Of a DNA stretch of 64,000 nt, positions 10,226 to 34,593 are shown piece by piece (the first letter of the stretch is position 1; each line of letters starts with the position of its first letter). Both the position numbers and the translations under genes were made by a program. This stretch comes from Ruegeria atlantica (GTDB lineage: Bacteria > Pseudomonadota > Alphaproteobacteria > Rhodobacterales > Rhodobacteraceae): assembly GCA_013032095.1 (NCBI GenBank), contig WQBJ01000003.1, forward strand, positions 124,001-188,000. Reading direction: 5' to 3'. The notes below the pieces were generated by a model. The model was not told the origin of the DNA and searched no databases. It saw only the letters and a list, made by a program, of their open reading frames with translations.

Positions 10226-11614
10226 TTACGAGTGGATCGGGCCGTCACCACAAGCGAGTGCAGCCTCGCGCACGGCTTCCGAATATGTCGGGTGCGCGTG
10301 GCAAGTCAGGGCCAGATCCTCGGCCGAGGCGCCGAATTCCATCGCCACGCAGACCTCGTGGATCAGATCACCTGCCGCCGGGCCGATGATATGCGCGCCC
10401 AAGATGCGGTCGGTGTCCTTGTCGGCCAGAATCTTGACGAACCCGTCTGCCGCAAAGTTTGCCTTGGCGCGACCATTGCCCATGAACATGAACTTGCCGA
10501 CTTTGTAGTCGCGATCTTGCGCCTTGAGGGTCTCTTCGGTTTCACCCACATTGGCGACTTCGGGCCAGGTGTAGATCACACCCGGAATGACACCGTAGTT
10601 CACGTGGCCGTGCTTGCCTGCAACCTGCTCGGCGGCTGCCATGCCTTCGTCTTCGGCCTTGTGGGCCAGCATCGGGCCTTCGGTGACGTCGCCGATGGCA
10701 TAGATGCCCGGCACGTTGGTCTGCCAGTCGGCGCCCACCTTGATCTGGCCGCGTGGGGTCATTTCGACGCCCAGCGCCTCAAGTCCCAGCCCGTCCGAGA
10801 ACGGATTGCGCCCAGTGGCGACCAGCACCGTGTCGGCATCGATCACATGCTCACTGTCATCCTTACGCAGCTTGTAAGTGACCTTGGCCTTGGTCTTGGT
10901 GGCTTCGGTCTTTTGCACCGCCGCACCCATGATGAATTTCAGGCCCTGTTTCTTGAGGATACGCTGGAAGGTCTTCTGCACCTCAGGGTCCATGCCCGGC
11001 GTGATCACGTCGAGGAATTCGATCACTGTGACCTCGGCCCCCAACCGCTGATAGACCGAGCCCAGTTCCAGCCCGATCACGCCCGCGCCGATCACAACCA
11101 TCGTCTTCGGAATCTTGCCCAGAGACAGAGCACCGGTCGAGGTCACGACGACCTTCTCGTCCACTTCGACACCGGGTAACGACGCAGGTTCGGACCCGGA
11201 CGCGATGATGATGTTCTTGGCCTCGTGCAACTCATCGCCCACCTTGACCTGACCGGCTGCTGGGATCGAACCCCAACCTTTTAGCCAGTCGATCTTGTTC
11301 TTCTTGAACAGAAACTCAATGCCCTTGGTGTTGCCGTCGATGGTCTCTTCCTTGTAGGCCTGCATCCGCTTCCAATCGACCGAGGGGCTTTTGCCCTTCA
11401 AGCCCATCTTGGCAAAGTTGTGCTCGGCTTCGTGCAACTGATGGCTGGCATGCAGCAGCGCCTTGGACGGGATACAGCCCACGTTCAGGCAGGTGCCACC
11501 CAGCGTATCGCGCCCTTCGACAACGGCTGTTTTCAGGCCCAATTGAGCGCAGCGGATAGCGCAGACATAGCCGCCGGGGCCAGCGCCGATTACGATGACG
11601 TCGTAGTTTGCCAT
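10226..11614 (-). CDS. lpdA: Dihydrolipoyl dehydrogenase (E3)
   Basis: FAD enzyme that reoxidises dihydrolipoyl groups of the 2-oxoacid dehydrogenase E2 and reduces NAD+. At 462 residues it has the family length. Seen: FAD dinucleotide motif [12 protein letters not shown] at the N-terminus, redox disulfide in [13 protein letters not shown] (Cys42, Cys47), the NAD-binding [19 protein letters not shown] motif near 180, and the C-terminal HAHPTYSE with the catalytic His-Glu. It is the last gene of the sucCD-sucAB cluster, so it most likely serves the 2-oxoglutarate dehydrogenase complex. Confidence 0.97.
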
Positions 11615-11959: not shown

Positions 11960-13486
11960 TTACAGATCCATCAACAGGCGGCGCGGATCTTCCAGCGCCT
12001 CTTTCACACGAACAAGGAACGTCACCGCGCCTTTGCCGTCAACAATCCGGTGATCATAAGACAGAGCCAGATACATCATCGGTCGAATCTTGATCTCACC
12101 ATTGATGACCATCGGGCGGTCCTGAATCTTGTGCATCCCCAGAATACCAGATTGCGGGGGGTTCAGGATTGGCGAGGACATCAGCGAACCATAGACGCCA
12201 CCGTTCGAGATGGTGAAGGTGCCGCCCTGCATTTCCTCCATGCTCAGCTTACCGTCGCGGGCACGTTTGCCTTTCTCGGCAATCGCCTTTTCGATGGCCG
12301 CGAACGACATGCTGTCTGCGTCGCGGATGACCGGAACCACAAGACCCTGCGGTGTACCGGCAGCAACGCCCATATGTACGAAGTTCTTGTAGACGATGTC
12401 GGTGCCGTCGATTTCCGCGTTCACCTCGGGCACTTCTTTCAGTGCGTGACAGCAGGCTTTGGTGAAGAAAGACATAAAGCCCAGACGCACACCATGCTTT
12501 TTCTCGAACTGGTCTTTGTACTGGCTGCGCAGGGCCATCACTTCGGTCATGTCCACCTCATTGAAGGTGGTCAGGATTGCAGCGGTGTTCTGCGCATCCT
12601 TCAGGCGCTTGGCGATGGTTTGGCGCAGACGAGTCATGCGCACGCGTTCTTCGCGGCCCGCGTCCTGAGCCGCGACCGGCGCGCGTGGTGCCGGAGCCGC
12701 CGGGGCAGGGGCCACTGGCGCAGGAGATACCGGGGCGGAGGATGCCGCCGCGACCGCGCTGACCACGTCTTCTTTCATGATCCGTCCATCGCGTCCGGTG
12801 CCGCGAACCTGATCGGCTGACAAGCCTGCTTCGGCCATGGCTTTCTCTGCAGAAGGCGCGTTGGCAACGTCTTTGCCGCCAATTGAGTCGCCACCGCTAG
12901 CAACTGCCGTCGCAGCAGCCGGCGCCGGGACAGCGCCAGCTGCAGCGCCAGAGATAACCGCCAGCTTGGCACTTGCGTTCACGGTTGCGCCTTCGGGGGC
13001 TACGATTTCCGCCAACACGCCAGCGGCCGGTGCGGGAACCTCGACCGAGACTTTGTCCGTTTCCAGTTCACACAGCATTTCGTCCTGTGCCACAGCGTCA
13101 CCAACCTGTTTGAACCAGGTGGAGACGGTGGCCTCGGTGACGGACTCACCCAAGGTGGGAACCATCACATCGACGCTGCCACCACCTGCGGCCGGAGCGG
13201 GCGCGGCAGCCGGGGCCGGTGCTGCGGCCGGGGCCGGAGCGGCACCTTCGCCTGCAGTGATGGTGGCGAGCAACGCATCAACGCCTACGGTTTCGCCTTC
13301 AGCGGCGACGATTTCACCCATCGCGCCAGCGGCCGGGGCCGGAACTTCGACGGTCACCTTGTCGGTTTCAAGCTCACAGAGCATCTCATCCACGGCCACG
13401 GCATCGCCGGGCTTCTTGAACCAGGTCGCAACCGTGGCTTCGGTCACCGACTCGCCAAGCGTGGGAACACGAACTTCTATCGTCAT
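11960..13486 (-). CDS. sucB: Dihydrolipoyllysine succinyltransferase (2-oxoglutarate dehydrogenase E2) with two lipoyl domains
   Basis: Core transferase of the 2-oxoglutarate dehydrogenase complex. Domains in order: lipoyl domain 1 (residues 1-80, lipoyl Lys43 in [11 protein letters not shown]), an Ala/Pro linker, lipoyl domain 2 (about 104-180, Lys145 in [11 protein letters not shown]), an Ala-rich linker, the peripheral-subunit-binding domain ([12 protein letters not shown] to GRIMKEDV, about 212-245), and the catalytic domain ending [16 protein letters not shown] with the active-site His. The 508-residue length exceeds the roughly 405 of the single-lipoyl E. coli enzyme because of the duplicated lipoyl domain. 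It begins 3 bp after the sucA stop. Confidence 0.96.
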
Positions 13487-13489
13487 CGC

Positions 13490-16447
13490 TTATTTTCCTT
13501 CGATGCTCAGCGCTTCGTTCACGAGCGCCTCTTGTTGGGCTTTGTGTTGGCTGGCCAGACCCGTGGCGGGCGAGGCCGAGGTTGCGCGACCGACATAGCG
13601 CGGCCGTGTGTGTTTGGCGCCGATACGGGTCAGCACCCATTCGATATTGGGTTCGATAAAGGTCCAGGCACCCTGGTTCTTGGGTTCCTCTTGGCACCAG
13701 ATCATCTCGGCCCCTTTGAAACGCTCTAGCTCGTTGATCAGCGAGTGCGCGGGGAAGGGGTAAAACTGCTCAATCCGCATCAGATAGACGTCGTCGAGGC
13801 CAAGTGCGTCGCGTTCTTCCAGAAGGTCGAAATAGACCTTGCCCGAACACATCACCACGCGCTTGATCTTGTCGTCTTTGACCAGCTTGGTTTCCGAGTT
13901 TCCTTTCTGCGCGTCATCCCACAGCACCCGGTGGAAGCTGGAGCCGGTGGTAAAGTCCTCGGCCGTGCTGACTGCCAGCTTGTGGCGCAACAGCGATTTG
14001 GGCGTCACAAGAATCAGCGGTTTGCGGAAGGTGCGGTGCAACTGACGGCGCAGAATGTGGAAATAGTTCGCGGGTGTCGTACAGTTCGCCACGATCCAAT
14101 TGTCCTGTCCGCACATTTGCAGGAACCGTTCAAGACGTGCGGACGAGTGTTCCGGGCCTTGACCTTCGAACCCATGCGGCAACAGCGTCACCAGACCGGA
14201 CATCCGCAGCCATTTGCTTTCGCCCGAGCTGATGAACTGGTCGAACATGATCTGCGCACCGTTGGCGAAGTCACCGAACTGGGCCTCCCACAGGGTCAGC
14301 GCATTCGGTTCCGCCAGCGAGTAGCCGTATTCGAAGCCCAGCACCGCGTATTCGCTCAGCATCGAGTCGATCACTTCGTATTTCGACTGACCCTCGCGGA
14401 TGTTGTTTAGCGGGTAATAGCGCTCTTCGGTTTCCTGATGAACAAAGCCGGAATGACGCTGGCTAAAGGTACCACGCGTCGCGTCCTGACCGGACAGGCG
14501 CACTGGATACCCCTCTGTCAGCAAGGAACCAAAGGCCAGCGCTTCACCGGTGGCCCAGTCAAAGCCCGTGCCGCTGTCGAACATCTGCTTTTTGTGATCC
14601 AGAAGACGCGCAACGGTCTTGTGAACCGCAATATCCGCCGGGGCATGTGTCAGCGCCTTGCCGACCTCGGCCAGAGTTTCCGGAGTAATGGCGGTTTCGC
14701 CGCGGACGTATTCCTCTTTGTTCTTGTCCAGATGTGACCAGCGCCCGTCCAGCCAGTCGGCCTTGTTGGGTTTATAGTCTTTGCCGGCCTCGAACTCATC
14801 GTTCAGGTGGGCCTGGAAGGCGGCTTTCATATCCTCGATTTCACCCTCGGGGATCAGGCCGTCTTTAACCAAACGCTCGGTATATAGGCTAAGCGTGGTC
14901 TTATGAGTTTTGATCTTCTTGTACATGATCGGGTTGGTGAACATGGGCTCATCGCCCTCGTTGTGACCAAACCGGCGGTAGCAGAAGATGTCGATGACCA
15001 CGTCTTTGTGGAACTTTTGGCGGAATTCGGTAGCCACCTTGGCGGCGTGCGTTACAGCCTCGGGGTCGTCGCCATTTACGTGGAAAATCGGGGCCTCGAC
15101 CATCAGCGCGATATCGGTGGGATATGGGCTGGACCGCGAGAAGTGCGGCGCGGTGGTGAAGCCGATCTGGTTGTTCACCACGATATGCATGGTGCCGCCG
15201 GTCTTGTGCCCGCGCAGACCCGATAGGCCAAAGCCTTCGGCCACAACACCTTGACCTGCAAAGGCCGCATCCCCGTGCAGCAGGATGCCCATCACCTTGG
15301 TACGGTCCGTATCGTTCAACTGATCCTGCTTGGCGCGAACCTTGCCCAGCACCACCGGGTTCACGGCTTCGAGGTGCGAGGGGTTGGCCGTCAGCGACAG
15401 GTGAACCGAGTTACCGTCGAACTCACGGTCACTGGATGCGCCGAGGTGGTATTTCACGTCGCCCGAGCCATCCACGTCTTCGGGTTTGAAGCTGCCACCC
15501 TGGAATTCGTTGAAGATGGCGCGATAGGGCTTGCTCATCACGTTGGCCAGGATGTTCAGGCGGCCCCGGTGCGGCATGCCGATGACGATATCGCTCACTC
15601 CCAGCGCACCGCCGCGCTTGATGATCTGCTCCATCGCAGGGATCAGTGCTTCGCCGCCGTCCAGACCAAAGCGCTTGGTGCCCATGTATTTGACGTGCAG
15701 GAACTTCTCAAAACCCTCGGCTTCGACCATCTTGTTCAGAATCGCCTTTCGGCCTTCCTTGGTGAAGGCGATTTCCTTGCCATAGCCTTCAATCCGTTCC
15801 TTCAGCCAAGCGGCCTGTTCCGGGTCCGAAATATGCATGTATTGCAGCGCGAAGGTGCCGCAGTAGGTCCGCTTCACAATGTCGACGATCTGGCGCATCG
15901 AGGCCATCTGCAGACCAAGGACATTGTCGATAAAGATCGGTCGGTCCATGTCGGCTTCGGTAAAGCCATAGGTCTTGGGATCTAGCTCGGGATGGGTGCT
16001 GGCCGCACGCATGCCCAGCGGGTCCAGATTGGCGGCCAGATGGCCCCGGATCCGGTAGGCCCGGATCAACATCAACGCCCGCAGGCTGTCCAGCACCGCG
16101 CGTTTAATCTGGTCTTCGCTGACCTGAACGCCTTTGTCCGCCGCCTTTTCCTTGATCTTCTTGCCAGCGGCCTTGGCATCAATCTCAGCCCATTCGCCGG
16201 TCAGCGCACCTGTCAGATCATCCGCCGGCATCGGAGGCCAGTCGGTCCGTGCCCAAGACGGTCCCTCAGCCTCTTTCTGAACGTCCGGCGTGGCGTCACC
16301 CATCGCCTTAAAGAACTCGGCCCAGGCGGCATCCACCGCGCCGGGGTCCTTGGTGTACTGGGCATAAAGCTGCTCCAGATACTCGGCATTGTGCCCCTGC
16401 ATAAAGCTTGAGGCGTGAAACGCGGAATTGGGCGTATGTTCGGTCAT
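13490..16447 (-). CDS. sucA: 2-oxoglutarate dehydrogenase E1 component
   Basis: Thiamin diphosphate enzyme that decarboxylates 2-oxoglutarate and succinylates the E2 lipoyl group. The 985-residue length is standard. Seen: the N-terminal E2-contact segment SSFMQGHNAEYLEQLYAQY, IGMPHRGRLNILANV, the GDAAFAGQGVVAEG loop, VNNQIGFTT in the ThDP/Mg site, RRFGHNEGDEP, and the transketolase-like C-terminal part with FSQRHSGFVHQE. The start overlaps the stop of the DUF805 gene by 4 bp (ATGA), tying it to the sucCD transcript. Confidence 0.97.
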   Translation of the reverse strand: MTEHTPNSAFHASSFMQGHNAEYLEQLYAQYTKDPGAVDAAWAEFFKAMGDATPDVQKEAEGPSWARTDWPPMPADDLTGALTGEWAEIDAKAAGKKIKEKAADKGVQVSEDQIKRAVLDSLRALMLIRAYRIRGHLAANLDPLGMRAASTHPELDPKTYGFTEADMDRPIFIDNVLGLQMASMRQIVDIVKRTYCGTFALQYMHISDPEQAAWLKERIEGYGKEIAFTKEGRKAILNKMVEAEGFEKFLHVKYMGTKRFGLDGGEALIPAMEQIIKRGGALGVSDIVIGMPHRGRLNILANVMSKPYRAIFNEFQGGSFKPEDVDGSGDVKYHLGASSDREFDGNSVHLSLTANPSHLEAVNPVVLGKVRAKQDQLNDTDRTKVMGILLHGDAAFAGQGVVAEGFGLSGLRGHKTGGTMHIVVNNQIGFTTAPHFSRSSPYPTDIALMVEAPIFHVNGDDPEAVTHAAKVATEFRQKFHKDVVIDIFCYRRFGHNEGDEPMFTNPIMYKKIKTHKTTLSLYTERLVKDGLIPEGEIEDMKAAFQAHLNDEFEAGKDYKPNKADWLDGRWSHLDKNKEEYVRGETAITPETLAEVGKALTHAPADIAVHKTVARLLDHKKQMFDSGTGFDWATGEALAFGSLLTEGYPVRLSGQDATRGTFSQRHSGFVHQETEERYYPLNNIREGQSKYEVIDSMLSEYAVLGFEYGYSLAEPNALTLWEAQFGDFANGAQIMFDQFISSGESKWLRMSGLVTLLPHGFEGQGPEHSSARLERFLQMCGQDNWIVANCTTPANYFHILRRQLHRTFRKPLILVTPKSLLRHKLAVSTAEDFTTGSSFHRVLWDDAQKGNSETKLVKDDKIKRVVMCSGKVYFDLLEERDALGLDDVYLMRIEQFYPFPAHSLINELERFKGAEMIWCQEEPKNQGAWTFIEPNIEWVLTRIGAKHTRPRYVGRATSASPATGLASQHKAQQEALVNEALSIEGK

Positions 16448-17027: not shown

Positions 17028-17909
17028 TCAGCCAATCGCTTCCAGCACAGCCTCACCCAGCTGCGCGGGGCTTTCGGCGACGACGATACCGGCCGAGCGC
17101 ATGGCTTCGATCTTGTCTTCGGCACCGCCCTTGCCGCCAGCGACGATGGCGCCTGCGTGGCCCATGCGGCGGCCCGGAGGGGCTGTGCGGCCTGCGATGA
17201 AACCGGCGGTCGGCTTCTTGCGGCCTTTCTTGGCCTCATCCGCCAGGAACTGCGCGGCTTCTTCCTCGGCCGAGCCACCGATCTCACCGATCATGATGAT
17301 CGACTCGGTTTCGTCATCGGCCAGGAACCATTCCAGCACGTCGATATGCTCGGTGCCTTTGATCGGGTCGCCGCCAATGCCCACACAGGTGGACTGACCC
17401 AGTCCTACGTCAGTTGTCTGTTTCACGGCCTCATAAGTAAGCGTGCCAGAACGGCTTACAACACCCACGCTGCCGCGCTTGTGGATGTGGCCGGGCATGA
17501 TGCCAATCTTGCAGGCGTCGGGCGTGATGACACCGGGGCAGTTCGGACCGATCAAGCGCGATTTGCTGCCTTCCAGCGCGCGCTTCACCTTCATCATGTC
17601 CAGAACCGGGATGCCTTCGGTGATGCAGACGATCACTTCCATTTCGGCATCAATCGCTTCGAGGATCGAGTCAGCCGCGAAGGGCGGCGGCACGTAGATC
17701 ACCGAGGCATTGGCTTCGGTCACGTGCTTGGCTTCGTGGACCGAGTTGAACACGGGCAGGTCGAGATGGGTCATCCCGCCTTTGCCGGGGGTCACACCGC
17801 CGACCATCTTGGTGCCATAGGCGATGGCCTGTTCAGAGTGGAATGTGCCCTGCGAGCCGGTAAAACCCTGACAGATCACTTTGGTATTTTCGTCGATGAG
17901 GACTGCCAT
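17028..17909 (-). CDS. sucD: Succinyl-CoA ligase, alpha subunit
   Basis: CoA-binding subunit of succinyl-CoA synthetase, which makes ATP or GTP from succinyl-CoA. The 293 residues include the CoA-binding [15 protein letters not shown] near 16-30, [10 protein letters not shown] near 121-130, and the phosphohistidine His251 in [10 protein letters not shown]. An upstream in-frame ATG exists at 17978, but the ATG at 17909 is chosen because it gives the canonical [15 protein letters not shown] and follows AGGAG by 8 bases. The 84-bp gap from sucC contains GC-rich dyads that may set the mRNA 5' end or attenuate read-through. Confidence 0.97.
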
Positions 17910-17993
17910 TTGGCGTTCTCCTATTTTAGGCGGGCCGCAGCCTGCCTGAATTCTTCGGAAAGGCGGGCCAAGGCCCACCCCACGGAATTGGGA

Positions 17994-19187
<1,194 letters not shown>

Positions 19188-19295
19188 CAACACTGTCCCG
19201 TCTGACTATGATTAAACCGTTATAGGGGTGTCTACGGGGCAAGTTTAAAGGGTTTTTTGACGGATCAGATAAATATCACGAAGATTTTCAGCATT

Positions 19296-19326
19296 TGTGA
19301 TCACAGCTTTTTGGGGCGTGATCACA
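19296..19326 (-). promoter_or_regulatory. Tandem GTGATCAC operators upstream of sucC
   Basis: TGTGATCACA (19296-19305) and CGTGATCACA (19317-19326) are two palindromes with centres 21 bp apart, two helical turns, about 110-140 bp before sucC. The same pair with the same 21-bp spacing precedes sdhC (29810-29838). This points to one regulator of both TCA operons that binds as a dimer pair on one face of the DNA. The regulator is not known from the sequence; AkgR, described in Rhodobacter sphaeroides as controlling 2-oxoglutarate dehydrogenase genes, is one candidate to test. Confidence 0.7.
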
Positions 19327-19638: not shown

Positions 19639-20847
19639 TCAGGCAACGCGGAGCAGTTGGTCAATCACGCTAAAGAACTGAAATCGTGCGGTCGACCAGT
19701 TGTGCGCGCTTGCCGTTTCATAGGCCGAAACACGCATTTTCGCGCGTTCGTGCTGTGTTGTTGAGCATGCACGGCGTAACGCTTTTTGTAAGCCGTCGGG
19801 GTAATCTGGGTCGTACAGAAAACCGTTCTTGCCATCCTCAATTAGTTCGGGAAAGCTTCCGATAGCAGGTGCGATGATGGGGATGGAAAAGGAAAAGGCA
19901 AGCATAGCCGCTCCAGATGTCAGCGAGGCTCGGTAAGGCAAAACCATAAAGTCCGATGCATTCATGTAGTTCTGAATGTCGTCATCATGAACCCAGCCTT
20001 CATAGAAATCTATTTGTTTTTTCTTCTCAAAGACATTTTCAAAGTACTCTTGATCAAGATCACGAACTTTACCTGCGATCACAAGTTTTGCGGCAACTGA
20101 AACGTTGTTCAGTTCATCCATTGCATTGCAAAGCAAGGTTAATCCCTTGTATTTTCGTACCCATCCAAGACTCTGGAAGGTCGTCTCATCAGCCGAATTG
20201 CCCAAACGAGTTTTGGCTTCTACCGGTGATACTTGATCAGCATAAAATCCGATATAGCTGCCGTGAGTGATAATGTGAATTTTGCTTTCGATGCCCGGTA
20301 ACTCAGATATCACGTCTCGGTGTGCGGCCGGACCGTGCACGAAAATCGCGGAAGCGAGTTCACTCAGCGATCTGCGCAATGATGCCTCGATTTTTCCGTC
20401 AACAAGTTCGTGCTCTTGGAGATTGTGAACGGTCCACAAGATGGTACCACCAGCAGCTCGAAACTCCTCGCATGCCGAAATGAATTCGTTAATACCATGG
20501 AGAACTTTATCCATGTTTTTTGATTTAAAAAGAAAGTTCAGCCAATGAACGTGAAAACAAACATGATCTGACGTGCCGCACTTCAAGCGGGCAATTGCGT
20601 CAAAAATAGTCTCTGGCTCGGATGCAAAAAGCGGAGCGTTGCGGCCATAGAACATGTCCTGATACGGGTTGGAGTAATTTGGCCAATAGGAAAGTTGGAC
20701 ACGCCCGCATGTTAGCACGTCGTCAAATTTTGTATTCCATTCCATCGGTCGTGTGGGCTCTGTTACAGGGGGCGGAGGGCTAGCTATCGGCTCCTGTCTA
20801 TCCTGTTTGTTACCCTCGTCCTTCTTCCAGAAAGAAAAAATGCTCAT
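19639..20847 (-). CDS. Glycosyltransferase, GT4/group 1-like
   Basis: A 402-residue GT-B fold glycosyltransferase. The C-terminal half carries the group 1 pattern: AKLVIAGKVRD near residue 250, YEGWVHDDDIQNYMNASDFM near 280, then LPYRASLTSGAAMLAFSFSIPIIA and GSFPELIEDGKNGFLYDP, which bind the nucleotide-sugar donor. The N-terminus (MSIFSFWKKDEGNKQDRQEP) is charged and low-complexity; an in-frame ATG at 20886 would add 13 residues. It is the last gene of a four-gene minus-strand glycan cluster. Donor and acceptor cannot be told. Confidence 0.85.
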   Translation of the reverse strand: MSIFSFWKKDEGNKQDRQEPIASPPPPVTEPTRPMEWNTKFDDVLTCGRVQLSYWPNYSNPYQDMFYGRNAPLFASEPETIFDAIARLKCGTSDHVCFHVHWLNFLFKSKNMDKVLHGINEFISACEEFRAAGGTILWTVHNLQEHELVDGKIEASLRRSLSELASAIFVHGPAAHRDVISELPGIESKIHIITHGSYIGFYADQVSPVEAKTRLGNSADETTFQSLGWVRKYKGLTLLCNAMDELNNVSVAAKLVIAGKVRDLDQEYFENVFEKKKQIDFYEGWVHDDDIQNYMNASDFMVLPYRASLTSGAAMLAFSFSIPIIAPAIGSFPELIEDGKNGFLYDPDYPDGLQKALRRACSTTQHERAKMRVSAYETASAHNWSTARFQFFSVIDQLLRVA

Positions 20848-20964
20848 CCTTTGGCTTTCTCGGAGTATTGCGGAGCGAACCCGCAATTATGTTGGCGTTT
20901 CTGGGCCTCTGTTCCTAGCTTTGGCCCAAATACTGAGAATGCAAAGAAAACTCTGTCCTTCATT

Positions 20965-21792
20965 CTAGGTTTTCCCTCGGATCATTTTTCTAATCCGGCC
21001 CGAGATTCCGCGTTTTTTTTGTTTCTTCTGGGAAACAGGGGCTACAATAACCCCCATGGCGTTCAAAATGGATTTTAGTGAACGACCACCAAGCAAAGCG
21101 TCTTCGTCCGCCTGAGGTATGAGGGCCGGTCCGCGCTCCAAAAGATCTGCCGCTTGTTTGGCATGCGCGACCTTTGTTTCGCGCGGCCCTGTGAAGTGAA
21201 GGAGAAAGACACCCGATGGGTCACGCTGCAGGTCAGCCAGCCTGCTATTGAAGTCCATGTAGTCAAATAGTTCAGCGCAGTCACGATATTTGCTATCCTT
21301 ATGGAGCAGATAAACAATTGCGTCCTGATCGCCTCGAGTGAACATTCCAAGGTCTTCGCGCCACCATTCTTCCACAGTCTCTAGCGGCGTGTTTAGAATA
21401 GCTTCGATAAACTCCTCGCTGCGTTTGCCGCCACGTATCAGGAACTGACCGGAACTCAAAAAAGTGAAGATTTTCTTGTTGGCCGGGCTTTTGCAAAAAG
21501 AGACAATCTTGTCGCCGGAAGGTATAAAGTGCTCGAGACCTTTCTCAAGGTCGATGAAGAACGCATCGTCATCAATCCAAAATACATAATCAAATAAGTT
21601 TATGTAGTGTTTAAGATACATGAATTTTGTCATGTACCGATTTGTTGCCGAGGTCGGCCAATCGCATCCAATATAGGTATAGCCGTGCCGTCGAGCATAA
21701 GCATAGTGATTCCAGGAATGCAGAAACTCGCTTCGAGGGAAACGGCCCGAAAGAATGCACACCCGCTTTGGATCACTAAACACCTTCGTCAT
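20965..21792 (-). CDS. GT-A-fold glycosyltransferase with a DDD motif (GT34/GMA12-like)
   Basis: A 275-residue protein with the layout of galactosyl/mannosyl transferases of the GMA12/MNN10 (GT34-like) type: VCILSGRFPR at the start, YAYARRHGYTYIGCDW near residue 30, and DYVFWIDDDAFFID with metal-binding Asp74-Asp76. Later features are LSSGQFLIRGGKRSEEFIE and WREDLGMFTRGDQDAIVYLL, typical of the acceptor side. The C-terminus is basic (KKQKKRGISGRIRK). It overlaps the upstream pyruvyltransferase-like gene by 4 bp. It probably adds a sugar to the same surface glycan; specificity unknown. Confidence 0.8.
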   Translation of the reverse strand: MTKVFSDPKRVCILSGRFPRSEFLHSWNHYAYARRHGYTYIGCDWPTSATNRYMTKFMYLKHYINLFDYVFWIDDDAFFIDLEKGLEHFIPSGDKIVSFCKSPANKKIFTFLSSGQFLIRGGKRSEEFIEAILNTPLETVEEWWREDLGMFTRGDQDAIVYLLHKDSKYRDCAELFDYMDFNSRLADLQRDPSGVFLLHFTGPRETKVAHAKQAADLLERGPALIPQADEDALLGGRSLKSILNAMGVIVAPVSQKKQKKRGISGRIRKMIRGKT

Positions 21793-22625
21793 GTCATGAT
21801 CCCTCGGGTGCGCAGCTCTTTTTCCGAGGGAAACGTTATGTCGTTGGCAGCAACCGACAGTGTGGCTGGAGAGTTAGGTGCAGCGTTGAATTGTGCGTCG
21901 GAAATAGAACCAAGATATTCTGGTTTCTGAAGACCAACGCCTAGGAAATAATCCTCAAATTTAAGTAATGGTTCTTCAGTTGCTGGTTTGACCATGACGA
22001 CTGGTCGACCCAAAGCATGGGCAAAAACGATGCCATGAAGCGAGGATGAATAAACGAGTTCTGCCTCCATGATCTTGCGGCCGACTGTTAGTGGATCATC
22101 GTCAATATCCACAAGTTTTATCCCTTTCGGCAGGAGATCCCGTGCCGTCTCGCGTTCTCTGTAATGAGGAATAAAGATGACTCGTCCCGGTGTTGCAGGC
22201 TTTGGCTCTATCATTTTGGAAATCGTCAGACCTGGATCTCCGTGCCACTGAATCTGCGACGTGTCATACCCCGCAGTTTTGAGCGCATCTTCGGTAATCG
22301 GGCCCCGAAGGCCGTGAACTCTTATGGTTCCCGGTGGCACAGATGGAAGCTCGCCTGATTTGCATCCGATCCCACACAGTATGTCGCCCGGAGCGAGCTT
22401 ATGGGCGATTGAGCCCACACACAAAAGTCTCGGTCCGTCCGAGACATTCAACGCCTTTGCTCCTTGGTAAAAGTGTTGGACGAGGTTTCGGGCAAAAATA
22501 TCCCCGGCGTTGCCGACAATGAAATCTCGCCAAGACGATGACTTGCGCTTCCAGTAGCGGTTAAACCATATGTTTTGACGACTTTTAATTCTGTCGTGCC
22601 AATAAAAAACTCTTACGTTGGCCAT
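21789..22625 (-). CDS. Polysaccharide pyruvyl transferase family protein
   Basis: A 278-residue protein of the polysaccharide pyruvyl transferase (WcaK/CsaB-like) family. Seen: WRDFIVGNAGDIFARNLVQHF near residue 31, the glycine loop LCGIGCKSGELP, RVHGLRGPITEDALKTAGYD, WHGDPGLTISKM, IPHYRERE, and the conserved VYSSSLHGIVFAHALGRPVVMV near 205, where SSSLHG is the family signature. Such enzymes transfer pyruvate from phosphoenolpyruvate to a sugar to make a ketal in exopolysaccharide or wall polymers, though some members do other transfers. It lies in the glycan cluster and overlaps the next gene by 4 bp. Confidence 0.85.
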   Translation of the reverse strand: MANVRVFYWHDRIKSRQNIWFNRYWKRKSSSWRDFIVGNAGDIFARNLVQHFYQGAKALNVSDGPRLLCVGSIAHKLAPGDILCGIGCKSGELPSVPPGTIRVHGLRGPITEDALKTAGYDTSQIQWHGDPGLTISKMIEPKPATPGRVIFIPHYRERETARDLLPKGIKLVDIDDDPLTVGRKIMEAELVYSSSLHGIVFAHALGRPVVMVKPATEEPLLKFEDYFLGVGLQKPEYLGSISDAQFNAAPNSPATLSVAANDITFPSEKELRTRGIMT

Positions 22626-22629
22626 GGCA

Positions 22630-23589
22630 CTATGCCCCTTTTTTTTCGCGCATGTCGTCGGTTTTACCCCAATAAGTCAAGGGCACCTCAGCGAGCGAAA
22701 AATCAACATCATTTATTCCATAGGAAACAAGTGCCTTGTTCTCTATGACAGTCATTCCCGAAAAATACGTGCAACTAAAAAGATTGGGGTTATGCTTTGT
22801 TGAAGAACCTAAAAGAGCACGCATAGAGTGCGTCCACGTACGTTTGCCGGTACTAATCCTGTACCCGTCTCTCTCGAAGTGTAATGTTGTAGGCACACCC
22901 AAATAAATTCGCTTTCCGCGCAGGTAATGCCGACGATGGCTGATGAGCCCGAATAGAGTACCTGACGAATCCAGTGCTGAGAGTTGGGTTCCGATGGTCA
23001 ACTGTGGCTGACCGGTAAACGTATTGCTGCCACTTATATTGTCTTTTTCCGTGGCGTCTAATGGATGAAAGTGGATAACTCCGTTTTCACGCATTGTCTC
23101 TCTTAGAATGATCAGTGGGCTAATGCTATAAAGAGCATGAAGCAGTCCATCATGTTCAAAAAATGCCCAGTTTTTTTCTATCTCCGACCTGTCAGCAAAA
23201 CTTATCAGGAAAAGCGGACCAAGTTCGGGTTCAACCTGGGCGACGTATATTCTGTTCGGGCGTTCAAAGTGGCCGGTGTTGAAAGTGAGCCAACAACGAC
23301 TGCCTGCACGAAAGAGTTTGGGATCGCAAACTGGTGCGCCGATTTCAGGTTCCAGCAATTTAGTGAGGTTTAGAACCGGCCCTATTTGGGCTGTTTCGTT
23401 GTCAATTCGAGCCAAAAATCCCTGAAATGGCTTTGAAGTTCCCTTCGCTAATCCTCTGAAGGCGACGCAGAACCCGTCATTCGAGGTTTGAATGGATGGA
23501 TTAAACAGGTTGACGATTCCCGTCGACCGCAACCCTTGAGCGATACGTTGACTGTGTGGGGCGCTGAAGCGATTGATGGTCAGTAGCAA
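22630..23589 (-). CDS. Beta-propeller glycosidase/phosphorylase-like protein
   Basis: A 319-residue protein with features of five-bladed beta-propeller glycoside hydrolase/phosphorylase-like proteins (GH43/GH130-like fold): NLFNPSIQTSNDGFCVAFRG near the N-terminus, GAPVCDPKLFRAG, KNWAFFEHDGLLHALYSISP, SSGTLFGLISHRRHYLRGKRIY and ALVSYGINDVDFSLAEVPL. These match the pattern of repeated blades in such proteins, often found with glycosyltransferases in polysaccharide loci. The start is a TTG at 23589 with AAAGG about 9 bases upstream. It is the first gene of the cluster. Whether it cuts, builds or only binds sugar is unknown. Confidence 0.65.
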   Translation of the reverse strand: MLLTINRFSAPHSQRIAQGLRSTGIVNLFNPSIQTSNDGFCVAFRGLAKGTSKPFQGFLARIDNETAQIGPVLNLTKLLEPEIGAPVCDPKLFRAGSRCWLTFNTGHFERPNRIYVAQVEPELGPLFLISFADRSEIEKNWAFFEHDGLLHALYSISPLIILRETMRENGVIHFHPLDATEKDNISGSNTFTGQPQLTIGTQLSALDSSGTLFGLISHRRHYLRGKRIYLGVPTTLHFERDGYRISTGKRTWTHSMRALLGSSTKHNPNLFSCTYFSGMTVIENKALVSYGINDVDFSLAEVPLTYWGKTDDMREKKGA

Positions 23590-24015: not shown

Positions 24016-25891
<1,876 letters not shown>

Positions 25892-29752: not shown

Positions 29753-29838
29753 CGTGATCACAATGCTTTCACCCTGAAAACGCTAACATTCAAACAGTGG
29801 AAGCAATTTTGTGATCACGCTAATATTTAGTGTGATCA
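29753..29838 (+). promoter_or_regulatory. Three GTGATCAC operators upstream of sdhC
   Basis: Perfect GTGATCAC palindromes lie at 29753-29760, 29810-29817 and 29831-29838. The last two have centres 21 bp apart, exactly the spacing seen upstream of sucC, and the proximal one ends 115 bp before the sdhC start. The first copy is 57 bp further upstream and could be an auxiliary site. No other paired copies were noticed in the window. This supports a common regulator for sdhCDAB and sucCD-sucAB. Confidence 0.7.
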
Positions 29839-29953
29839 CATATGAAGCTAATCTGCGAATTTGCACCCAAATTAGCCAATATTGCGTATGCAGCACGTGA
29901 CAGAAAGGCAAAAAAGGGTAAAACGACGGGTAGCCAACGAAAGAGGAGCCGAC

Positions 29954-30337
29954 ATGGCCGATGTCAATCGGGGCAACCGCCCGCTCTCGCCACATATTAT
30001 GATATACCGCCCCCAGATGACGTCCGTGTCTTCGATCATGGTTCGCATATCTGCACTGGGTGTTTTCGCTGTATCCATCCTGGTTGTCTGGTGGCTGCTG
30101 GCCGCTTCGACATCGGAAAGCGCATTTGCCGGGATTGACGCATTTCTGCGCAGCTGGTTCGGCGATATCGTCCTGACCGCAGCGACTTGGGGACTGTGGT
30201 ATCACACGCTGGGCCGTTTGCGGCACGTCTTGTGGGACTTCGGTTACTGCCTTGAGGTTGACGTGGCCGAGAAACTGGGGCTGGGCATGTTCGTTGGTGC
30301 GACCGTCCTGACCCTTATCACCGTGCTTGCGGTTTAA
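29954..30337 (+). CDS. sdhC: Succinate dehydrogenase cytochrome b556 subunit
   Basis: Haem b-binding membrane anchor of complex II. The 127 residues begin MADVNRGNRPLSPHIMIYRP, the standard SdhC start with the quinone-site SPH motif, followed by helices near 30-50, 62-85 and 108-127. The haem-ligand His is expected in LWYHTLGRLRHVLWDFG. The ATG at 29954 follows GAGGAG by 5 bases; upstream in-frame codons are rejected. First gene of sdhCDAB. Confidence 0.95.
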   Translation: MADVNRGNRPLSPHIMIYRPQMTSVSSIMVRISALGVFAVSILVVWWLLAASTSESAFAGIDAFLRSWFGDIVLTAATWGLWYHTLGRLRHVLWDFGYCLEVDVAEKLGLGMFVGATVLTLITVLAV

Positions 30338-30742: not shown

Positions 30743-32551
30743 ATGACAGCAGCATATGAATATGAAACCCACGAATACGACGTCGTTGTCGTAGGCGCAG
30801 GTGGTGCAGGTCTGCGGGCGACACTGGGCATGGCAGAGCAAGGTCTGCGCACGGCCTGTGTCACCAAGGTTTTCCCGACCCGCTCGCATACGGTTGCGGC
30901 GCAGGGTGGCATCGCCGCATCTCTTTCCAACATGGGTCCTGACCACTGGCAGTGGCACATGTATGACACCGTCAAGGGCTCGGACTGGCTGGGCGACACC
31001 GACGCGATGGAATACTTGGCCCGCGAAGCCCCCAAGGCGGTGTATGAGCTGGAGCACTACGGTGTGCCATTCAGCCGGACCGAAGAAGGCAAGATCTATC
31101 AGCGTCCCTTCGGCGGCCACACCACCGAGTTTGGCGAAGGCCCCGCAGTGCAGCGGACTTGTGCTGCCGCTGACCGGACGGGCCACGCGATCTTGCACAC
31201 GCTGTATGGTCAGTCGCTGAAGAACAACGCCGAGTTCTACATCGAATATTTCGCCATCGACCTGATCATGTCCGAGGACGGGCAGTGTCAGGGTGTCGTC
31301 TGCTGGAAGCTGGACGACGGCACGATGCATGTCTTCAACGCCAAGATGGTGGTGCTGGCGACCGGCGGTTACGGCCGGGCCTATTTCAGCGCGACCTCGG
31401 CCCATACCTGCACCGGTGACGGTGGCGGCATGGTAGCCCGCGCAGGTCTGGCACTGCAGGATATGGAATTCGTTCAGTTCCACCCGACCGGCATCTACGG
31501 CTCGGGCTGTCTGATAACTGAGGGCGCACGTGGTGAAGGTGGATACCTGACCAACTCGGAAGGCGAACGGTTCATGGAGCGCTACGCGCCCCAATACAAG
31601 GACCTTGCGCCGCGTGACTACGTCTCGCGTTCGATGACCATGGAAATCCGCGAAGGTCGTGGTCATGGAGACAACGGTGACCACATCCACCTGAACCTCA
31701 GCCACCTGCCGGCCGAAGCGCTGGCCGAGCGTTTGCCGGGGATTTCCGAGTCGGCGCGCGTTTTCGCAGGTGTTGACGTCACCAAGGAACCGATCCCGGT
31801 TCTGCCGACTGTGCACTACAACATGGGCGGTATTCCGACCAACTATTGGGGTGAGGTTCTGAACCCCACCGCTGACAACCCGACCGGTGTTGTGCCGGGC
31901 CTGATGGCCGTGGGTGAGGCCGGGTGTGCCTCGGTCCACGGGGCGAACCGTCTGGGTTCGAACTCGCTGATCGACCTCGTGGTGTTTGGCCGTGCCGCTG
32001 CGATCCGCGCCGGTGAGGTGGTGGATGCCAAAGCACCGAACCCGGTTCTGAACCAAGCCTCGGTCGACAAGGCCTTTGACCGGTTTGACGCGGTGCGCAA
32101 CGCCAGCGGAGCCATACCAACCGCTGACCTGCGGCTTGAGATGCAGCGGACCATGCAGGAAGACGCAGCCGTGTTCCGGACCGCCAAGACCATGGCTGAA
32201 GGCGTCGAGAAGATGACGGCAATCGCCGCCAAAATGGACGATCTGAAAGTTACCGATCGCTCGCTGGTCTGGAACAGCGACCTAATGGAAACGCTGGAAC
32301 TGACAAACCTGATGCCGAGCGCACTGGCCACCATCGTCGGGGCCGAGGCCCGTAAGGAATCCCGCGGCGCCCACGCGCACGAGGATTACACCGAGCGTGA
32401 CGACGAGAACTGGCGGGTACACACCGTGTCGCGGGTTGATGGCAACAAAGTAGACCTTAGCTATCGCCCGGTCATCGTTGACCCGCTGACAACCGAAGAC
32501 GAAGGCGGCATCAGCCTCAAGAAAATCGCGCCCAAGGCGCGGACGTTCTAA
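30743..32551 (+). CDS. sdhA: Succinate dehydrogenase flavoprotein subunit
   Basis: Catalytic subunit of complex II, oxidising succinate to fumarate with covalent FAD. The 602 residues contain [20 protein letters not shown] (FAD dinucleotide fold, about 14-33), the FAD-linking His in [11 protein letters not shown] near residue 52, [23 protein letters not shown] in the active site, and [20 protein letters not shown] near 400. Electrons pass to SdhB and then ubiquinone. Typical for alphaproteobacteria. Confidence 0.98.
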
Positions 32552-32563
32552 GGAGAGGAACTT

Positions 32564-33343
32564 ATGGTACAACTGACCCTCCCCAAGAATTCGCGCATTA
32601 CAACGGGCAAGACTTGGCCCAAGCCGGAAGGCGCGACCAATGTGCGAAAGTTCCAGATTTATCGCTGGAACCCAGAAGACGACAAAAACCCGCAGCTCGA
32701 CACCTATTTCGTCGACATGGATAGCTGCGGTCCGATGGTTCTTGATGCGCTAATTAAGATCAAGAACGAGATTGACCCGACTCTGACCTTCCGCCGTTCG
32801 TGCCGCGAAGGTATATGCGGCTCCTGTGCGATGAATATCGACGGGATCAACACTCTGGCCTGTATCTACGGCATGGATGAGATCAAGGGGGACGTGAAAA
32901 TCTATCCACTGCCGCACATGCCGGTGGTCAAGGACCTTATCCCGGACCTGACCCATTTCTACGCCCAGCATGCCTCGATCATGCCGTGGCTGGAAACCAA
33001 AACCAACCGCCCGGCGAAAGAGTGGAAGCAGTCGATCGATGATCGTAAGAAGCTGGATGGCCTGTATGAATGTGTGATGTGCGCCAGCTGCTCGACCTCG
33101 TGTCCAAGTTACTGGTGGAACGGCGACCGCTATCTTGGACCTGCCGCGCTGCTGCACGCCTATCGCTGGATCATCGACAGCCGTGACGAGGCCACTGGTG
33201 AGCGTCTGGACGAACTGGAAGATCCGTTCAAGCTGTATCGCTGCCACACGATCATGAACTGTGCCAAGACCTGCCCCAAAGGTTTGAATCCGGCCAAGGC
33301 GATCGCTGAAATCAAGAAGATGATGGTCGACCGCTCGGTCTAA
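32564..33343 (+). CDS. sdhB: Succinate dehydrogenase iron-sulfur subunit
   Basis: Electron-transfer subunit of complex II, 259 residues. All three clusters are visible: the [2Fe-2S] motif CREGICGSC with a further Cys in the N-terminal ferredoxin domain, and [16 protein letters not shown] plus [17 protein letters not shown] for the [4Fe-4S] and [3Fe-4S] clusters in the C-terminal domain. It follows sdhA by 12 bp after AAGGAGAGG and ends the operon, with a strong hairpin 16 bp after the stop. Confidence 0.98.
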
Positions 33344-33879: not shown

Positions 33880-34593
33880 TCAGGTGGAGCCTGGAAAAGC
33901 CGCTTGCAGCGCGATCTCGACCATATCGCCAAAGCTTCTTTCACGCTCAGACGAGGGCAAGGCCTCACCAGTCAGCAGATGATCCGACACAGTCAGAACA
34001 GCCAGCGCTCGGCAGTTGTGGCGCGCGGCTAGGATGTACAGCTCGGCCGCTTCCATCTCGACCCCAAGAATACCGTGACGCACCATCTGTTCGTTCAGAT
34101 CGGGGCGTTCGTCATAGAACACGTCAGATGAATAGATCCCGCCGATATGGGTAGAGGTACCTTTGGCAGCGGCAGCCTGGGCCGCAGCTTGCAGCAGGCC
34201 CCAGTCGGCGCAGGGCGCAAAGTTTAGCTCTTTCAGAATGCCGCGTGACGGTGTGCTGAGAGTGGTCGAAGTCATAGCAAGGATCACGTCGCGGATATTG
34301 ACACTCTCTTGCATCCCACCGCACGAGCCAATTCGGATCAGGGTTTTGGCACCGTAATCACGGATCAACTCGTTGGCATAAATAGACAAGGAAGGCATAC
34401 CCATTCCGCTGCCTTGAATCGTGACCGGGTTTCCCTTCCAGGTGCCGGTGTAGCCAAGCATTCCGCGCACATTATTGATCTGTTCGGCATCTTGCAAAAA
34501 CGCTTCCGCCGCCCATTTCGCTCGATACGGATCGCCGGGCATTAGAACGGTTTCTGCAATTTCACCCTTTTCGGCGCCGATATGAATTGTCAT
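33880..34593 (-). CDS. deoD: Purine-nucleoside phosphorylase, DeoD type
   Basis: Hexameric trimeric-fold phosphorylase that splits purine (deoxy)nucleosides with phosphate to base and (deoxy)ribose-1-phosphate for salvage. The 237 residues begin [20 protein letters not shown] and show [37 protein letters not shown] with the phosphate-binding Arg, [16 protein letters not shown] at the nucleoside site, and LTVSDHL with the catalytic Asp. Nucleosides taken up by the BMP-type importer at 46-51 kb would be natural substrates. Confidence 0.95.

Follow-up and report, generated by a model that had tools for sequence, protein, structure and literature searches.

Twin copies of the palindrome GTGATCAC, with centres 21 bp apart, stand upstream of both sucC and sdhC in this Ruegeria atlantica genome, and these are very probably used by a transcription factor with GntR and FCD domains, the ortholog of AkgR from Rhodobacter sphaeroides. 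With good confidence, we interpret the sites as operators of this ortholog, in which each GTGATCAC would hold one dimer, two dimers would lie on one face of the DNA, activation of the suc-odh and sdh operons is the most likely outcome and negative autoregulation of akgR is suggested. The suc and sdh sites are members of a known regulon, to which we add structural detail; we do not present the paired arrangement as unpublished.

The window, that is, the whole 64,000-nucleotide stretch analyzed, contains eight exact GTGATCAC palindromes, while 100 shuffled versions had a mean of 0.99 and a maximum of 3. Exact-motif scans placed GTGATCAC-N13-GTGATCAC at 19297-19325 and 29811-29839 only (the third match had three mismatches), reproducing the twin sites of the original prediction, although the suc pair starts at 19297, one base later than the 19296 given there. 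The distance to the start codon was 109 bp for sucC, as predicted, and 114 bp rather than 115 bp for sdhC. The additional copy 57 bp upstream of the distal sdh site was also recovered, and the copies starting at 11001, 38061 and 47743 proved to be unpaired and within long open reading frames (ORFs), in agreement with their earlier assignment to coding sequence. Coordinates are given in Table 1.

Table 1. Operators, predicted promoters and genes at the suc and sdh loci (window coordinates)
Feature	Position	Strand	Remark
Proximal suc operator GTGATCAC	19297..19304	.	centre 52.5 bp upstream of predicted -35
Distal suc operator GTGATCAC	19318..19325	.	centre 21 bp from proximal operator
Predicted sucC promoter TTAAAC-N18-TATAAC	19219..19248	-	prediction
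sucC, leading gene of suc-odh operon	17994..19187	-	ATG at 19187
sucD	17028..17978	-	CoA-binding and CoA-ligase domains
sucA, 2-oxoglutarate dehydrogenase E1	13490..16447	-	
sucB, E2 acyltransferase	11960..13486	-	
lpd-type pyridine nucleotide-disulphide oxidoreductase	10226..11614	-	holds unpaired GTGATCAC at 11001
Third, auxiliary GTGATCAC upstream of sdhC	29754..29761	.	57 bp from distal operator
Distal sdh operator GTGATCAC	29811..29818	.	
Proximal sdh operator GTGATCAC	29832..29839	.	centre 61.5 bp upstream of predicted -35
Predicted sdhC promoter GTGACA-N16-TAAAAC	29897..29924	+	prediction
sdhC	29954..30337	+	ATG at 29954
sdhA	30743..32551	+	
sdhB	32564..33343	+	

The suc operon runs sucC-sucD-(one ORF)-sucA-sucB-lpd and the sdh operon sdhC..sdhA-sdhB. 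The interval between sucC and an mdh-type ORF (24016-25176) is occupied on the minus strand (19639-23589) by genes resembling glycosyltransferases, GMA12/MNN10 proteins and polysaccharide pyruvyl transferases; the ORF at 22630-23589 matched nothing in Pfam or NCBIfam.

Scanning the 6.14-Mb genome with up to three mismatches allowed returned 78 places; among the first of these, listed with the best matches leading, the sucC and sdhC pairs were the only exact ones. The two places with a single mismatch were each located within a long ORF, judged from their translations to encode a transaldolase and a P-loop ATPase. The reversed pattern gave 3 places versus 78, an unfair comparison because the reversed motif includes CTAG. 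Thus, the whole-genome scan that the original prediction proposed found exact pairs only upstream of suc and sdh and not at many unrelated loci, and the comparison with relatives, proposed along with it, showed the pair to be kept upstream of both operons; both outcomes favor the prediction.

At the family level, two exact copies separated by 0 to 30 bp (GTGATCAC-N{0,30}-GTGATCAC) were present in 133 of 149 genomes, with positions taken from among the matches listed. Among 196 order-level genomes (at least 90% complete, with a single family code throughout), 194 had the form with a spacer of 12 or 13 bp. A sample of the class (n = 289) gave only six matches, namely, this genome, three others of the same family and 2 of 285 other alphaproteobacteria, one of these last two pairs, with the 21-bp spacing, directly preceding another GntR/FCD gene in a genome outside the family (locus L415, 992-1020) and the other lying within a long ORF. 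The pair is a hallmark of the order (194/196 versus 2/285).

The pair was found at all of the 30 best-matching sdhC loci and all of the 30 best-matching sucC loci, this genome included. We examined 90 sdhC upstream regions out of 142 genomes with a match and 70 sucC upstream regions out of 147, in both cases taking pair-less genomes first. The 129 exact pairs that these contained were spaced by 21 bp in 119 cases and by 20 bp in 10; the former value applied to 66 of 72 pairs at sdhC and 53 of 57 at sucC, and the remainder were spaced by 20 bp. Twenty further sdhC upstream regions, all from ortholog-bearing genomes, had 15 exact pairs and 3 with a mismatch, the other 2 being without a pair.

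The regulator gene itself is located outside the window. This genome has 25 FCD genes, only one of which (contig C46, 7744-8388) has GTGATCAC just before its start, ending 8 bp before the ATG; the other 24 had no exact copy at the start, and one of them contains a copy within the coding sequence. The C46 gene encodes GntR and FCD domains, and its product shares 76% identity across 210 residues with a protein of genome G051, which we presume to be R. sphaeroides 2.4.1 (the nearest named relative of the G051 protein in the genome collection is from Cereibacter ovatus, at 92%). We also take RSP_0981 of R. sphaeroides to be AkgR. GTGATCAC is listed among the binding sites of AkgR, which is termed a transcriptional activator (PMC6365646), and for the GntR protein RSP_0981 the predicted targets are suc, odh and sdh (PMC4344238). 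The genome studied here resembles this description in its GntR/FCD ortholog, identified with the reference sequence from the presumed R. sphaeroides genome, and in its GTGATCAC operators upstream of suc/odh and sdh. The suggestion of a single tricarboxylic acid (TCA) cycle regulator, with AkgR as the candidate, thus gains support from the reported motif and predicted targets (PMC6365646, PMC4344238) and from conservation and co-occurrence in our data.

Besides the identity of the protein, the resemblance to G051 extends to a YgjP-like gene directly upstream of akgR (the two YgjP-like genes are 56% identical) and to the 21-bp pairs before both sucC and sdhC. The two genomes differ in that akgR is here on a different contig from suc and sdh, while in G051 it is close to sdhB, after that gene; moreover, akgR here has GTGATCAC at its start, whereas the G051 gene lacks an exact copy there. 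Downstream of sdhB, the window has a gene for a DeoD-type purine nucleoside phosphorylase (33880-34593), and G051 has its akgR ortholog in the corresponding area.

Using tblastn and our own cut-off (best E value of 1e-59 or better), we found a clear AkgR ortholog in 133 of the 149 family genomes. Gene and pair were both present in 130 genomes and both absent in 13, and the ortholog alone and the pair alone were found in three each (Fisher p of 2e-13, ignoring kinship). The genomes with the ortholog alone were G040, G122 and G147, the last two being less than 80% complete, and in G040 an exact copy and a copy with one mismatch are 21 bp apart upstream of sdhC. No ortholog was found in G019, G096 and G114, which have the pair, and this counts against AkgR. 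By locus, ortholog-bearing genomes had an exact pair in 70 of 76 sdhC and 54 of 55 sucC upstream regions, while no exact copy was found in 12 of 14 and 12 of 15, respectively, from genomes without the ortholog. A lone copy with one mismatch was seen in genomes lacking both gene and pair, either at sdhC (G083 and G101) or at sucC (G109 and G017). On a SucC tree of 51 genomes, we counted five changes for the gene and five for the pair, and well-supported branches force two of the gene changes. These distributions suggest repeated joint loss of akgR and the pair; a sign test for co-loss as independent events on the same tree was not significant, and the test was unable to reach significance.

The position of the operators relative to predicted promoters was also regular. 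Upstream of sdhC, we found a conserved predicted promoter, GTGACA-N16-TAaaAC. Measured from the first base of this promoter to the centre of the proximal operator, the distance was 61.5 to 64.5 bp in 51 of the 57 sequences scored; the six exceptions, 52.5 (three), 74.5 (two) and 84.5 (one), were off by about whole helical turns. These 57 sequences scored at least 4 and came from 68 with a promoter candidate among the 72 exact pairs, and the 11 low-scoring picks dropped before the count were at 62.5 to 63.5 (eight), 34.5, 52.5 and 218.5. In the held-out sdhC set, 18 of 20 sequences had a pair, 16 had a candidate and 13 scored at least 4 (those dropped were at 61.5, 62.5 and 62.5). Nine of the 13 fell in the main distance class, and of the remaining four (53.5, 65.5, 72.5 and 75.5), two were within 1.5 bp of whole turns. 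Pooling the off-mode distances of both sets, 8 of 10 satisfied this rule (p of 0.002, partly post hoc and with kinship ignored). For sucC, the commonest pick was a TTAAAC/TTAACC-N18-TATA-like predicted promoter at 51.5 or 52.5 bp (28 of the 48 picks scoring at least 8), in a scan that is noisy because the other 20 fall elsewhere. In many relatives (among L097-L125), a conserved GCGCCAAAAAACCGCGC-like element is found between the pair and the predicted sdhC promoter; it is not clear in the window.

Together, the 21-bp spacing and the operator-promoter distances are consistent with binding on one helix face. The AkgR ortholog would bind as one dimer per GTGATCAC, so that two adjacent dimers, perhaps acting cooperatively, would be two turns apart on the same face, ca. 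90 to 115 bp before the predicted transcription starts, with activation of both operons as the most likely effect. From the predicted -10 elements, we estimate these starts to be near 19212 for suc and 29931 for sdh. A third copy was present in 17 of the 72 paired sdhC upstream regions and in none of the 57 at sucC. It was separated from the distal site by 56 to 57, 99 to 175, 240 or 265 bp, distances without clear helical phase on inspection. Such extra copies numbered 17 in 18.6 kb upstream of sdhC versus 15 in 198.8 kb of sequence following start codons.

The akgR gene has a single operator. Among the 30 loci best matching the protein of this genome (itself included), all had one GTGATCAC near the akgR start, placed where a -10 element would fall, and in 26 a TTGAC-like word preceded it by 18 bp; having been chosen by likeness to this protein, these loci cannot represent the family. 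Since the operator coincides with the expected -10, negative autoregulation is suggested for this genome and its nearest relatives. When we took instead the 80 loci closest to the G051 protein, GTGATCAC lay within 150 bp of the match start in 30, including three among the first 20 and 26 among the last 40. Given this uneven distribution and the absence of the operator in G051, autoregulation of akgR looks lineage-specific.

We considered whether another GntR/FCD paralog might rather be the main binder of the pair, either by itself or together with AkgR. The genome certainly has many FCD genes, and the core palindrome is not exclusive to AkgR, as shown by the GntR gene preceded by a pair outside the order and by an FCD paralog that shares 31% identity with AkgR and is found in G038 in a cluster with CTGTGATCACAG sites. 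The GntR-like PS417_07240 of the deoxyribonate cluster of Pseudomonas simiae, 32% identical to AkgR, is also a proposed user of GTGATCAC, but with other targets and one described site, at -47 to -40 (PMC6365646). The three genomes with a pair and no AkgR ortholog found point the same way. Nevertheless, the ortholog and the pair agree in presence or absence in 143 of the 149 genomes, and no exact GTGATCAC was seen at the start of any remaining FCD gene in this genome, making a paralog an improbable main binder. The alternative of a repressor site in place of an activator site seems unlikely, if somewhat less so. In its favor, the protein may be able to repress, because the operator of akgR falls at the expected -10, but at suc and sdh the pair usually precedes the predicted -35 by ca. 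52 or 62 to 63 bp, which places it outside the core promoter, and AkgR is termed an activator (PMC6365646).

It is scarcely credible that there is no specific operator here at all, that is, that the pair reflects CRP/FNR-type sites, an effect of GATC methylation or chance. TGTGA and TCACA do look like CRP half-sites, and the motif includes GATC. However, CRP and FNR half-sites are spaced centrally (TGTGA-N6-TCACA and TTGAT-N4-ATCAA), whereas those of GTGATCAC are contiguous, with no central spacer, and none of these readings accords well with the contrast between the order and other alphaproteobacteria or with two exact pairs in 6.14 Mb. For RSP_1663, which we take to be CceR, the letters of GTGATCAC itself do not contain the motif, being without GTT/AAC half-sites. 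Like AkgR, RSP_1663 is predicted to act on sdh, but it is described as a LacI-family carbon regulator with the motif [A/G/T]GTT-N6-8-AAC[A/C/T] (PMC4344238). Operators of the AkgR ortholog thus remain our preferred reading.

We set aside a regulon defined by single sites. The 9-mer TGTGATCAC, which is GTGATCAC with a T/A flank and was the form surveyed, gave 48 entries or about 44 distinct genome sites (by our count), 27 coding and 17 intergenic according to a rough ORF caller. Six of the 17 are at akgR, suc and sdh. Further single-site targets may be among the other 11 (L259, L271, L289, L291, L306, L319, L320, L323, L325, L330 and L334), of which L289 neighbors an aminotransferase-like gene. 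In G038, five CTGTGATCACAG-type sites occur within ca. 23 kb (L310, 1841-19908, and L311, 5448) near genes for the FCD GntR protein, transport, an FAD oxidoreductase and a Rieske-type oxygenase, perhaps a paralogous regulon sharing the core palindrome.

More tentatively, and with slightly less than even confidence, we propose a near-universal Rhodobacterales module in which two dimers two turns apart would be helically phased on both TCA operons, with autocontrol varying by lineage. The akgR operator is present in roseobacter-like genomes, and R. sphaeroides and most of its nearest relatives seem to lack it, which predicts that the model species and roseobacter-like lineages differ in regulation. 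Since autocontrol would differ between lineages, R. sphaeroides would, if this is true, be unrepresentative of akgR autocontrol across much of the order. In practice, GTGATCAC-N12/13-GTGATCAC is a usable rule, having located promoters in 194 of the 196 sampled order genomes, and it would tie a fixed DNA architecture to TCA-cycle control across a large set of marine and photosynthetic bacteria.
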